A program made the position numbers and the translations under genes. The notes below the pieces were generated by a model that saw only the letters and a list, made by a program, of their open reading frames with translations, searched no databases and was not told the DNA's origin. From assembly GCA_001913845.2 (NCBI GenBank), contig MKGP02000072.1:1-42849 (forward strand): a DNA stretch of 42,849 nt, read 5' to 3'. Below are positions 37,581 to 42,468 of this stretch, in pieces (within the stretch, counting starts at the first letter, position 1; every line of letters begins with the position of its first letter). This DNA is from Limnothrix sp. CACIAM 69d. GTDB taxonomy: Bacteria > Cyanobacteriota > Cyanobacteriia > CACIAM-69d.

Positions 37581-40505
37581 CTAATCTTCCACAAATTGCC
37601 GCATGGGAATTTCAACCAGGAAACTAGTTGAATGATTCAGCTCCGATCGACAAGTTAACCGGCCGCCATGTCGCTCCACCACAATTTGTTGGGCAATGGA
37701 CAAACCTAAGCCAGTTCCCTTGCCCACATCTTTGGTGGTGAAAAAAGCATCAAACAAGTTTCGTTGCACCTCAGGGGCAATTCCGGGCCCGTTGTCCGTA
37801 ATCACAATCTGCACCGTTTCGGGATCGGCCAAGGTGGTGGTGATGGCGATTTGTGGCGGTTCCCGATCGCTCCGTTTGTCCTCATCGATCGCGTCGATCG
37901 CATTGGTCAGCAAATTCATAAACACCTGGTTCATTTGCCCCGCGTAACACTCAATGGGGGATAACTCGCCGTAGTGTTTTTGAATCTGAATCGCTGGGCG
38001 CTGATCCGTAGCCTTCAGTCGGTTGCTCAAAATCATCAGCGTGCTATCCAACCCCGCGTGAATGTCTACGCTTTTCACCTCCGCTTCGTCCAGCCGCGAA
38101 AAGGTGCGCAAGGACAAAACAATTTCGCGAATGCGATCGGTTCCCACCCGCATTGATTTCAAGAGTTTGGGCAAATCTTCCTGCACAAACGTCACATCAA
38201 TTTCGTCCGCCAGTTCCAAAATTTCCGGCGTGGCCTTGGGAAAGGCCAATTGATAGGCAACCAACAGCGCCAACATATCTTGCACATAGTTGCAGGCATG
38301 TTCGAGGTTGCCGTGAATGAAATTCACCGGATTATTAATTTCGTGGGCCACCCCTGCCACCATTTGCCCCAAACTGGACATTTTTTCCGTTTGCACCAGT
38401 TGTGCTTGGGCTTTTTTCAACACCGTCAGGGCTTCCGATAATTGGGCGGTGCGTTGTTTCACCCGCTGCTCCAGATCCTTGGCCAAGTCTTGCAGGGCAG
38501 CTTCGGCAGCCTCGCGATCGCGCACTTCCTGCTGGAGTTGCAGGTTTTGGTTGTCCAACTCCTCTTCAGCCAGTTCGCGACTCTCATCAGTCAGCACCAA
38601 CCACCAAACCGCGATCCCCGACAAAACCAGCAACATCGCATACAAAACCCCAAAGGTTTCCAGCAGCGGTATTGATTCGACATCGGATTGCGCGAGGGGT
38701 AACTCAGCGATCGGCCCGAGGGTATAAACCAGCGCGAAAATCGCCCCCAGCAGGCCAGCCATGGCCGCGAACAGCCCCAAAAAACGCACCATCCGCTTAC
38801 CCAACCGCAAAGACAGGCGATCGCCAAAAATGGCCCGCGCCACGATGGGAGCCAAGCGCACCTGCTCGCCCACGGAGGGCTTGCAGGAATCGTGACAATG
38901 GGCATCCAGACTGCAACAGAGGGAGCAGATATGGCCGTCGTAAACGGGACAAAAGGCCAAATCCGATGGCTCATACTCGTTGTCACAAACGCAGCAACTG
39001 ACCAGAGTGGCAGCCGGAAAATTCAAGCGCACTTCGTTGGGCCGGGCGATGTAGTAGCGGCCTCGGGTTGCCCAGGCGATCAGTGGCGACAGACCGAAGG
39101 CAATTCCCAGGGCCAAAAATGGCGCATAGGCCCGCAGCGATTCCCCCAACAGCCCCACAAACGCCACCATGGCAATGACCGAAGCCACCACCATCGAGCC
39201 AAATCCCACAGGGTTGAAGTTGTAAAGATAGGCGCGTTTGAACTCCACGTAGGACGGACTGAGTTTGAGGGGTTTGTTAATCACCAAGTCCGCCACGATC
39301 GCCCCAATCCAAGCGATCGCCACGTTGGAATAGAGACCCAACACGGCCTCTAGGGTTTCAAAAACCCCCAACTCCATCAACAGCAGAGCGATCGACACAT
39401 TGAACACCAACCACACCACTCGCCCGGGGTGGGAATGGGTGAGCCGCGAAAAGAAGTTTGACCAGGCCAGGGATCCCGCGTAGGCGTTCGTGACGTTGAT
39501 TTTGACCTGGGAGATGATCACGAAAAACACCCCCACCGTCAGCACCACTTGGGGATCGTCAAAAACGGTGGCGAATCCGGCCAAATACATTTGAACCGGC
39601 TCCTTGGCCTTGGCAAAGGAAGCCCCATGCTCGATCGCCAAAGTTGCCAAAAAGGCCCCGCCCAACTGCTTGGCCACTCCCAACACAATCCAGCCGGGCC
39701 CTGCCGCCAACACCGCCAACCACCAGCGAATCCGATTGTTGGGGCCACATTCCGGCAAAAAGCGTAGATAGTCTACCTGTTCGCCCAACTGGGCAATCAG
39801 AGAAAAGGAAACGGTGGCCGCCGCGCCAAACAGCAAGGGATCAAAGGCGGCTCCGCTGGGGGAGTTTCCGGCAAAGTGGAGCCAGCGATCGAGGGCGGCC
39901 GGTTCCTTGAGACCCACAAACACAAAGGGCAACCCCATCAAAACCAGCCAAATCGGTTGCGTCCAAAACTGCAACCGCTCGATCGCCGTGATGCCATAAA
40001 ACACAACCGGCAACACCACCAAAGAGCAAAGGATATAGCCCAACCACAGGGGAAGATGCCAATAAAGCTCTAGGGCTTGGGCCAGGATTGCCGCTTCCAG
40101 CGCAAAGAAAATGAACGTAAAAGAGGCGTAAATCAGCGAGGTAATCGTTGAGCCAATGTAACCAAACCCTGCGCCTCTGGTGAGTAAATCAATATCAACA
40201 TTGTATTTAGCGGCGTAATAGGAAATCGGAATTCCCGCTAGGCCAATCAGCAGTCCCACCACCAAAATGGCCCAAAAAGAATTGCTGAATCCATAGCTAA
40301 TCACTAAAGATCCACCGATCGCTTCAAGGGCCAGAAAGGAAATACCGCCTAGGGCTGTATTGGCCACTAAAAATTCTGACCACTTCCGAAAGGACTGGGG
40401 CGCATAGCGAAGGGAATAGTCCTCGATCGTCTCGGTGGCCACCCAAGCGTTGTACTCTCGACGCTTCTGCACAACCTTTTTGCGGGGCATATACGGAGTC
40501 GTCAT
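37581..40505 (-). CDS. NCS1-type permease fused to a Cys-rich module and a histidine kinase
   Basis: A 974-residue membrane protein with three parts. Residues 1-490 form a complete 12-helix nucleobase:cation-symporter-1-like permease (EDYSLRYAPQSFRKWSEF, NTALGGISFLALEAIGG, GFGYIGSTI, NVTNAYAGSLAWSNFFSRL). Residues 504-541 hold nine cysteines and three histidines (SCCVCDNEYEPSDLAFC ... HICSLCCSLDAHCHDSC), suggesting a zinc-binding module. Two more helices (573-593, 617-637) and a coiled coil (640-705) follow. The kinase comprises an H-box MVAGVAHEINNPVNF (His721), N-box MNLLTNAIDAI, G1 VITDNGPGIAP and G2 GTGLGLSIAQQ. It probably senses a transported nucleobase-like compound and signals to an unlinked response regulator (inference). 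The start ATG has no clear ribosome-binding site. Confidence 0.88.
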   Translation of the reverse strand: MTTPYMPRKKVVQKRREYNAWVATETIEDYSLRYAPQSFRKWSEFLVANTALGGISFLALEAIGGSLVISYGFSNSFWAILVVGLLIGLAGIPISYYAAKYNVDIDLLTRGAGFGYIGSTITSLIYASFTFIFFALEAAILAQALELYWHLPLWLGYILCSLVVLPVVFYGITAIERLQFWTQPIWLVLMGLPFVFVGLKEPAALDRWLHFAGNSPSGAAFDPLLFGAAATVSFSLIAQLGEQVDYLRFLPECGPNNRIRWWLAVLAAGPGWIVLGVAKQLGGAFLATLAIEHGASFAKAKEPVQMYLAGFATVFDDPQVVLTVGVFFVIISQVKINVTNAYAGSLAWSNFFSRLTHSHPGRVVWLVFNVSIALLLMELGVFETLEAVLGLYSNVAIAWIGAIVADLVINKPLKLSPSYVEFKRAYLYNFNPVGFGSMVVASVIAMVAFVGLLGESLRAYAPFLALGIAFGLSPLIAWATRGRYYIARPNEVRLNFPAATLVSCCVCDNEYEPSDLAFCPVYDGHICSLCCSLDAHCHDSCKPSVGEQVRLAPIVARAIFGDRLSLRLGKRMVRFLGLFAAMAGLLGAIFALVYTLGPIAELPLAQSDVESIPLLETFGVLYAMLLVLSGIAVWWLVLTDESRELAEEELDNQNLQLQQEVRDREAAEAALQDLAKDLEQRVKQRTAQLSEALTVLKKAQAQLVQTEKMSSLGQMVAGVAHEINNPVNFIHGNLEHACNYVQDMLALLVAYQLAFPKATPEILELADEIDVTFVQEDLPKLLKSMRVGTDRIREIVLSLRTFSRLDEAEVKSVDIHAGLDSTLMILSNRLKATDQRPAIQIQKHYGELSPIECYAGQMNQVFMNLLTNAIDAIDEDKRSDREPPQIAITTTLADPETVQIVITDNGPGIAPEVQRNLFDAFFTTKDVGKGTGLGLSIAQQIVVERHGGRLTCRSELNHSTSFLVEIPMRQFVED

Positions 40506-41052: not shown

Positions 41053-42468
41053 CTAACTGTTCTGATAGCTACCGACCTCCAGCGGGGGTTCGACCAGGCT
41101 GGGCAGGGTGATGGTGACGGTTGTTCCCCGATCGAGCTGACTATCTAAGCGGATCTGGCCCTGGTGGACTTGCACGATCGCCTGGACAATGGCCAGCCCC
41201 AACCCCGACCCGGCGGATTGACCGGTGCGATGGCGCGATCGGGACACATCGGCACGATAGAAGCGATCGAACAGATGGGGCAAAGCTTCCGGCGCAATGC
41301 CAATGCCGGTGTCTTGGACTTCGAGCTTTAGGGTGGGTTTGCGCAAGTCCCGATCGAGCCGCACCCAAACCCGCCCGCCCGATGGCGTGTATTGAATGGC
41401 GTTGCCAATCAGATTGGTCAGCAGCCGCGCCAACTGATCTCGATCGCCCCGCACCATCCAGGCTCGCGGATCGAGAATTTCACTGAGTTCGGGAATCAAT
41501 TCCAACGCTTGGCGGGTGGCCAGGGCCATTTGCTCCTCGATCGCCTCCAGCAGCAATTCCGCCAAATCCACCGTCCCCCACTGAGGTTGCACAATGCTGC
41601 TATCTTGGCGGGCCAAAAACAATAGATCGTCCACCAATTTTCCCAGGCGACGGGTTAACCGTTCGATCGCCTCCAACTGCGATCGCTCCATTTGGGGGTT
41701 AGTTTCCGCCAAAGCCACCTGCACGTTGGTTTGAATGGTGGCGATCGGGTTGCGCAGTTCATGGGATGCATCGGCCGTGAATTGCCGCAAGCGTTGGTAA
41801 GACTCGCGCACCGGTTCCATGGCCAGCCCCGACAGCCACCACCCGATCGCCCCGACAGCCCCAATCAACGCCACCACCCCAAAGCCCAGGTCGATCGCCA
41901 ACTGCTGGGCCGGTTTGGTGACCTCAAACCAAGGGTGACTGACTCGCAAATAGCCCAAGGGTTGCCCCCCCAGCGCAATGGCCTGAGTGCGCTGCCGCAA
42001 CACCAACGGCGGTTCCACCGGGCCCCGTCCCTCCGCTGGCTTCCCGGGCCCGTCGCGCAACACTTTCACCGTTTCACTTTTGCGCGTGGGATGCAGGGGA
42101 ATGGTCAAGGGTTCCGCAAAACTGGTCCAAAGCTGCTGGCCCGTGGGGCTAAACCACTCCAAATCGATGCGATCGTCTTCCACATCATTCCAAACCGTGC
42201 CCGTGTTGTCCCGAAAGCTGGCTTCCAGGTTCACCCGGGCCCGAGTAATCATCTGCTGTGGATCGATGGCGGCCAGGTCGCGCACTTGCACCGATTCAAT
42301 CACCAGCGATCGAGCAACTAGTTCGATCGCATGTTCGATCGTGTCATCCACCCGATCGACCAGCGTGGCCCTCGCATAACCATAAAAGGCGATCGCAGCC
42401 ACCAGCACCAACACTGCTGTTACGGTCGCGTACCAAAGGGCCAGCCGTCGCCGCGTTGTCTGAAACAC
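41053..42468 (-). CDS. Two-component sensor histidine kinase, RppB/NrsS-like
   Basis: A 471-residue classical sensor kinase. An N-terminal helix (about 11-31), a periplasmic sensor of about 160 residues (40-188) and a second helix (190-214) anchor it in the membrane. The dimerisation domain carries the H-box FTADASHELRNPIATIQ (His236). The ATPase has N-box LTNLIGNAIQYTP, G1 VQDTGIGIAPEAL, F-box LFDRFYRADVSR and G2 SAGSGLGLAIVQAI. The pattern is close to the cyanobacterial RppB/NrsS group, which responds to metals or plastoquinone redox; ligand residues were not identified here. The start is GTG with GAGGA 5 bases upstream. No response regulator gene precedes it within the 381 bases to the window edge. 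Confidence 0.88.
   Translation of the reverse strand: MFQTTRRRLALWYATVTAVLVLVAAIAFYGYARATLVDRVDDTIEHAIELVARSLVIESVQVRDLAAIDPQQMITRARVNLEASFRDNTGTVWNDVEDDRIDLEWFSPTGQQLWTSFAEPLTIPLHPTRKSETVKVLRDGPGKPAEGRGPVEPPLVLRQRTQAIALGGQPLGYLRVSHPWFEVTKPAQQLAIDLGFGVVALIGAVGAIGWWLSGLAMEPVRESYQRLRQFTADASHELRNPIATIQTNVQVALAETNPQMERSQLEAIERLTRRLGKLVDDLLFLARQDSSIVQPQWGTVDLAELLLEAIEEQMALATRQALELIPELSEILDPRAWMVRGDRDQLARLLTNLIGNAIQYTPSGGRVWVRLDRDLRKPTLKLEVQDTGIGIAPEALPHLFDRFYRADVSRSRHRTGQSAGSGLGLAIVQAIVQVHQGQIRLDSQLDRGTTVTITLPSLVEPPLEVGSYQNS

Follow-up and report, generated by a model that had tools for sequence, protein, structure and literature searches.

The minus-strand open reading frame at positions 37581-40505 of the window, i.e., the whole stretch of 42,849 nucleotides from Limnothrix sp. 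CACIAM 69d (contig MKGP02000072.1) that was analysed, is a single, stop-free gene for a protein of 974 amino acids. In this protein a carrier of predicted NCS1 fold is followed by a module of eight invariant cysteines, two further transmembrane helices, a signalling helix and a histidine kinase. We consider it fairly probable that the protein is an NCS1-derived membrane receptor for urea or short-chain amides which drives a two-component system, and that its carrier is chiefly a sensor, with little or no transport. Such a receptor would hint at how bacteria perceive extracellular urea and formamide. The family is widespread: one genome scan returned 551 stretches encoding relatives, with 79 loci kept, and the family is found in bacteria of soil and water and also on Klebsiella plasmids. 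It also offers a natural comparison between sister carriers, those coupled to a signalling output and those lacking one, which split once and show few fixed differences. We see more interest in this sensor and transporter sister pair, and in the swapping of outputs, than in the fusion itself.

An earlier note, made from the sequence of this DNA, had described permease, cysteine cluster and histidine kinase in one chain, and the translated frame, the fold model and the Pfam kinase domains agree with it. The carrier domain takes up residues 1-490 (39036..40505; this and all other features of the gene lie on the minus strand), the cysteine module residues 504-541 (38883..38996), TM13 and TM14 residues 566-639 (38589..38810) and the signalling helix or coiled coil residues 640-706 (38388..38588). 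The kinase half is complete and of the HisKA type of sensor histidine kinase, with a HisKA domain at residues 712-735 (38301..38372; PF00512, 33.8 bits against a cut-off of 26.9) that holds the H-box and phospho-acceptor H721, and a HATPase_c domain at residues 857-969 (37599..37937; PF02518, 84.3 bits against a cut-off of 26.4) with N, G1 and G2 boxes. These two domains are the only ones to exceed a Pfam cut-off in the protein. Kinase halves of this type are present dozens of times in the strain's own genome; in other cyanobacterial fusions the kinase is of another type, with about 30% identity.

The existence of free-standing carriers would be compatible with a chimaera, i.e., separate permease and kinase genes wrongly joined in assembly or annotation, which the earlier note had named as a possible refutation. 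However, a second genome of the same genus carries a 99% identical fusion with an open frame of equal length, and of the 291 cyanobacterial genomes sampled, 34 (12%) have the carrier, and most of these, which include genomes of different families, hold open-frame fusions of about 930-1070 amino acids. Since a near-identical fusion exists within the genus and many others exist across the cyanobacteria, assembly error was ruled out and we give the chimaera practically no credence.

The carrier is best classed as a divergent NCS1 subfamily, because fold matches, profile-profile alignment, BLAST and the Pfam score of a homologue all lead there, as the earlier note's NCS1-like permease had anticipated. 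In an AlphaFold2 model of residues 1-640 (pLDDT 82.5, pTM 0.84), residues 1-490 adopt an NCS1 (LeuT-type) fold whose best structural matches are CodB (Z 33.0; TM 0.77 by target) and Mhp1 (Z 25-29). No further fold, of LeuT type or otherwise, exceeds Z 22.7, SSS carriers such as SiaT score about 20, and NCS1 structures occupy Foldseek ranks 1-5. Alignment by hhalign of a profile of 70 carriers with 11 NCS1 proteins gave a probability of 99.5 and E 3e-22 over 428 columns, and BLAST with the window carrier found a CodB-like protein at E 3e-13 and E. coli CodB at 6e-6. In Pfam, the window protein falls short of the PF02133 cut-off of 23.5 bits, which a free-standing homologue (L057, 55% identical) exceeds with 42.1 bits; on this score we withdrew the statement that the carrier has no Pfam family (hmmscan had given L057 no match). 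Sequence searches of the PDB, with the single protein or the profile, returned no match except a chance one to a RING domain (E 4.6).

Despite this likeness, the carrier is only about 18% identical to CodB and Mhp1, and differs from them in its extra eight-cysteine tail, in its fusion to a kinase and at the sodium site. The side chains that hold sodium in CodB are Thr278 and Thr279 of the Na2 site (PMC9379551); in the global profile alignment they fall on K335 (39501..39503) and I336, which are invariant in 69/69 members, fused and free-standing. The Na2-site hydroxyls on TM8 of the sodium-coupled CodB and Mhp1, which are not a feature of every NCS1 carrier, are absent at the aligned positions in all 69 members, and this suggests that a canonical sodium site is not to be expected anywhere in the carrier family. 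A further NCS1 member, the metformin transporter MetT (PMC13390362), reportedly imports a nitrogen compound that is small and linear rather than a ring compound; it is a free-standing transporter, and we liken it to the present family by description and not by sequence.

Residues 504-541 contain exactly nine cysteines and three histidines. Eight of the cysteines (504, 507, 519, 527, 530, 531, 537 and 541) stay unchanged across 69 relatives, fused and free-standing; C505, H525 and H536 are not conserved among them. The module has CxxC pairs at 504/507 and 527/530 and a predicted hairpin and short helix, and probably binds zinc; comparison with zinc-binding modules of the treble-clef or RING-like kind gave no significant sequence match. 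Free-standing carriers, of about 560 amino acids, end just past it, and since the same eight cysteines close these kinase-less proteins, the module belongs to the carrier family as its conserved C-terminus and is not a linker made for the fusion. The zinc-finger-like segment proposed between carrier and kinase thus stands as to its residues, but not as something peculiar to that junction. A module that was itself the sensor, a metal or redox switch driving the kinase with the carrier merely as its anchor, would fit with eight invariant cysteines that lie, presumably in the cytosol, just ahead of TM13. Against it, the module would serve the carrier where no kinase follows, no linkage to metal genes was seen, and we regard this explanation as most improbable. 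For the same reason, i.e., the module's presence in free-standing carriers, the coupling to metal or redox state that the earlier note had considered finds no special case.

What is specific to the fused forms is the TM13/14 hairpin and the output domain; free-standing carriers lack the former. Helices are predicted at 566-596 and 614-639, and the full-length model, of moderate quality (pTM 0.58), has a continuous helix from TM14 toward the kinase (604-689), so the two further helices and coiled coil read from the sequence are recovered in the models.

Carrier-kinase fusions are already known for SLC5 (CbrA, CrbS and RpuS) and Amt, and transporter-kinase fusions have been called rare (PMC13022988). 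The analogy with CbrA drawn beforehand is sound in that both are carrier-kinase fusions of the LeuT superfamily: like the present protein, the SLC5-STAC kinases CbrA, CrbS and RpuS join a secondary carrier of that superfamily, a linker and a histidine kinase, and are concerned with small-nutrient use (PMC13022988, PMC9100948, PMC5715377). Here, however, the carrier is NCS1-like and not SLC5 (SSS), the closest folds being NCS1, and it ends in the eight-cysteine module; the linker is a TM13/14 hairpin with a long helix, and there is a free-standing sister clade, often at the same locus. The region between carrier and kinase, the place of the four-helix STAC domain in the CbrA type, has no Pfam match and was modelled as the cysteine module and two long helices. 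The kinase Ks-Amt5 (PMC5764959) is similar in that a nutrient transporter fold does the sensing and that what it senses is a small nitrogen compound, although the Amt fold is unrelated and the ligand differs. In the open-licence literature, where absence is weak evidence, we found neither an NCS1-kinase fusion nor a formamide or urea sensor kinase, and the literature searched yielded no membrane receptor for extracellular urea or formamide. In the database records examined, the fused proteins go by the names 'ATP-binding protein' or 'hybrid sensor kinase'.

Relatives are of two kinds, fused proteins of about 940-1560 amino acids and the free-standing carriers. The fused carriers precede outputs of the types HK, HK-REC, PAS-HK-REC, GAF-SpoIIE and PAS-GAF-PAS-GGDEF-EAL, with a plain kinase in the window, a hybrid kinase with receiver in Proteobacteria and a PAS-hybrid kinase at locus L014. 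A carrier that stands in front of unrelated signalling outputs behaves as a sensor input. We hold it to be evenly balanced whether the fused proteins form an unnamed class of bacterial receptors, built on an NCS1 carrier that no longer transports and serves as a plug-in membrane sensor of urea or short-chain amides for at least five output types, often beside a sister that still transports. Two of the non-kinase arrangements deserve description in their own right. At L018:6001-9763, in a member of the Methylococcaceae, the carrier is fused to GAF and a SpoIIE-type phosphatase and followed by an HATPase_c_2 (anti-sigma-like) gene, which we read as a carrier-gated partner-switching system, and at L017:6001-10668, in Methyloprofundus, the fusion to PAS-GAF-PAS-GGDEF-EAL is read as carrier-gated c-di-GMP turnover.

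In a tree of 70 carriers there is one change between fused and free-standing forms, the sole exception being L065, which is cut by a contig end. Few positions separate the two clades, and they do so without overlap. Position 60 is L, M or C in 32/32 fused carriers (29 L, 2 M, 1 C) and D in 37/37 free-standing ones, and position 61 is E in all 32 of the former and F or Q in all 37 of the latter (L60-E61 in the window protein, TM1, 40323..40328). At position 138, in TM3, A (32/32 fused) replaces G (37/37 free-standing), and at 343 and 347 (A343 and A347 in TM8, 39465..39479) every fused carrier has A and every free-standing one S. Helices TM1 and TM8 form the Na2 region in the superfamily. A check set of further sequences, largely ones not used to find the signature, upheld the pattern: intact fused forms keep L/M/C60-E61-A343-A347, one having S at 138, and all free-standing forms keep D60 with F or Q at 61, one having A at 347. 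Two short sequences with the fused signature in this set are contig-end fragments, and one long sequence, L027, carries the free-standing signature and no output domain.

These differences suggest that the normal transport cycle has been abandoned in fused carriers, and the loss of three conserved polar groups (D60, S343 and S347) therefore favours a receptor over a transporter for the fused clade. Residue losses do not prove that transport is lost, and with the acid now at position 61 and not at 60, some of the function could be retained. A true transceptor, which would transport urea or amides and signal its own transport activity, as proposed for CbrA with histidine, has in its favour a complete and highly conserved carrier fold, the transport of histidine by the CbrA carrier domain (PMC7096432, PMC13022988) and the single carrier copy of the strain's genome, which holds no second, free-standing one. 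We nevertheless think it rather unlikely, given that the polar groups are fixedly lost in fused carriers, that free-standing paralogues coexist with them at ten loci, as in transporter/sensor pairs, and that many fused forms adjoin a dedicated ABC transporter. Since the contrast between the sister clades is so clean, the question of how a receptor arises from a transporter can be addressed directly by swapping a few residues.

The substrate hint comes from the gene neighbours of relatives. On six plasmids (from Burkholderia, Paraburkholderia, Methylobacterium, Chelatococcus, Sinorhizobium and Thioclava) the fused gene and a urtABCDE-type ABC transporter are transcribed divergently, a response regulator gene comes after the fused gene, and formamidase is present at five of these six proteobacterial loci. 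Among 58 free-standing loci, many of which are near-copies from related Streptomyces and so not independent, 31 have a gene for FmdA, AmiE/AmiF or urease no more than about 6 kb away, rising to 49 when UrtA-like binding proteins are included; the FmdA and aliphatic amidase proteins beside free-standing carriers both exceed their NCBIfam cut-offs. Examples are fmdA-fmdB with the carrier in Moraxella, the carrier with a urease operon in Acinetobacter, and a row in Methylovirgula of fmdB-fmdA, fused gene, response regulator, free-standing carrier and amidase. Across 291 cyanobacteria, FmdA over cut-off occurs in 27 of the 34 genomes with the carrier and in 49 of the 257 others (Fisher p 4e-12, ignoring phylogeny). 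Urease is so common in this set (252/291) that its presence says little. Cyanobacterial fusions adjoin FmdA at L115, AmiE at L013 and UrtA-like genes at L121, L122, L123 and L126. Transporters of the urt type beside fmdA or amiE have been argued to carry amides (PMC3098086), and formamide and acetamide support the growth of a Pseudomonas that has amiE-fmdA-fmdB-urtABCDE (PMC13209695).

Formamidase, aliphatic amidase, urease and urtABCDE beside the relatives, together with the FmdA co-occurrence, therefore point to urea and short-chain amides. The nitrogen theme of the earlier note is thereby borne out, but its purine, pyrimidine or hydantoin ligand is not. A sensor of a nucleobase, hydantoin or allantoin could appeal to the closest folds, CodB and Mhp1, to the name 'allantoin permease' that PGAP gives some relatives, and to a CodB-like permease (35% identity to the E. 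coli protein) whose gene immediately follows a window-type fusion (L007:9227-10510). Yet no catabolic gene for nucleobases, hydantoin or allantoin was seen among the recurrent or annotated neighbours examined, where amide and urea genes dominate, and such a sensor seems to us quite improbable. Guanidine was also dropped as a substrate, as a guanidine-I riboswitch was found at a single Alicyclobacillus locus and not repeated (L068:10957-11071, minus strand, at a locus with urease, amidase and the free-standing carrier).

For the window protein itself, the ligand is inferred from relatives that are 40-70% identical. Within its subclade (L001-L009, L014 and L015) no amide or urea gene lies within 6 kb, and the scanned flanking genes are unrelated to one another and include no response regulator adjoining a window-type fusion. 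The flanks of the window gene agree with the earlier note in this, holding genes for DUF3177, a cytochrome b561-like protein, a FemAB-like protein, PrmA and an RppB-like kinase and none for a response regulator. The last of these, an upstream sensor kinase gene at 41053-42468 on the minus strand (295 bits, where the NCBIfam cut-off is 400), probably belongs to a separate system with its partner beyond the window. A REC-MarR regulator gene adjoins the fusions of L010-L013, and has only a weak partial match in the strain's own genome. Because this genome has UrtA and urease but neither FmdA nor an AmiE-like protein, our best guess is that urea is the likeliest ligand in this strain, with an unlinked response regulator.

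In the receptor scheme that we infer, from its ligand and the loss of transport to the direction of signalling and the metal of the cysteine module, urea or a short-chain amide (formamide, acetamide) would bind in the carrier pocket and move the carrier between its two open states, i.e., by alternating access. Through the cysteine module, on the cytosolic side, and TM13/14 the movement would reach the continuous helix of TM14 and coiled coil, and so set the autophosphorylation of H721. An unlinked response regulator would then adjust the uptake and use of these nitrogen sources.

Some observations on the wider family are added here. At L026:3836-5740, L029:2658-3794 and further Streptomyces loci the free-standing carrier follows a gene for a UrtA/AmiC-like protein of the periplasmic-binding fold, which seems to have no signal peptide and is perhaps a cytosolic amide sensor. 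Two records filed as 'Acinetobacter phage MD-2021a' (328-379 kb) hold the fused kinase and look like bacterial DNA deposited as phage. An IncF plasmid of Klebsiella pneumoniae (L097) has the layout of the proteobacterial plasmids, in which urtABCDE and formamidase accompany a hybrid sensor kinase; matches occur in 342 Klebsiella plasmid records, and conjugative Klebsiella plasmids often carry this sensor, annotated only as ATP-binding protein or ArcB.
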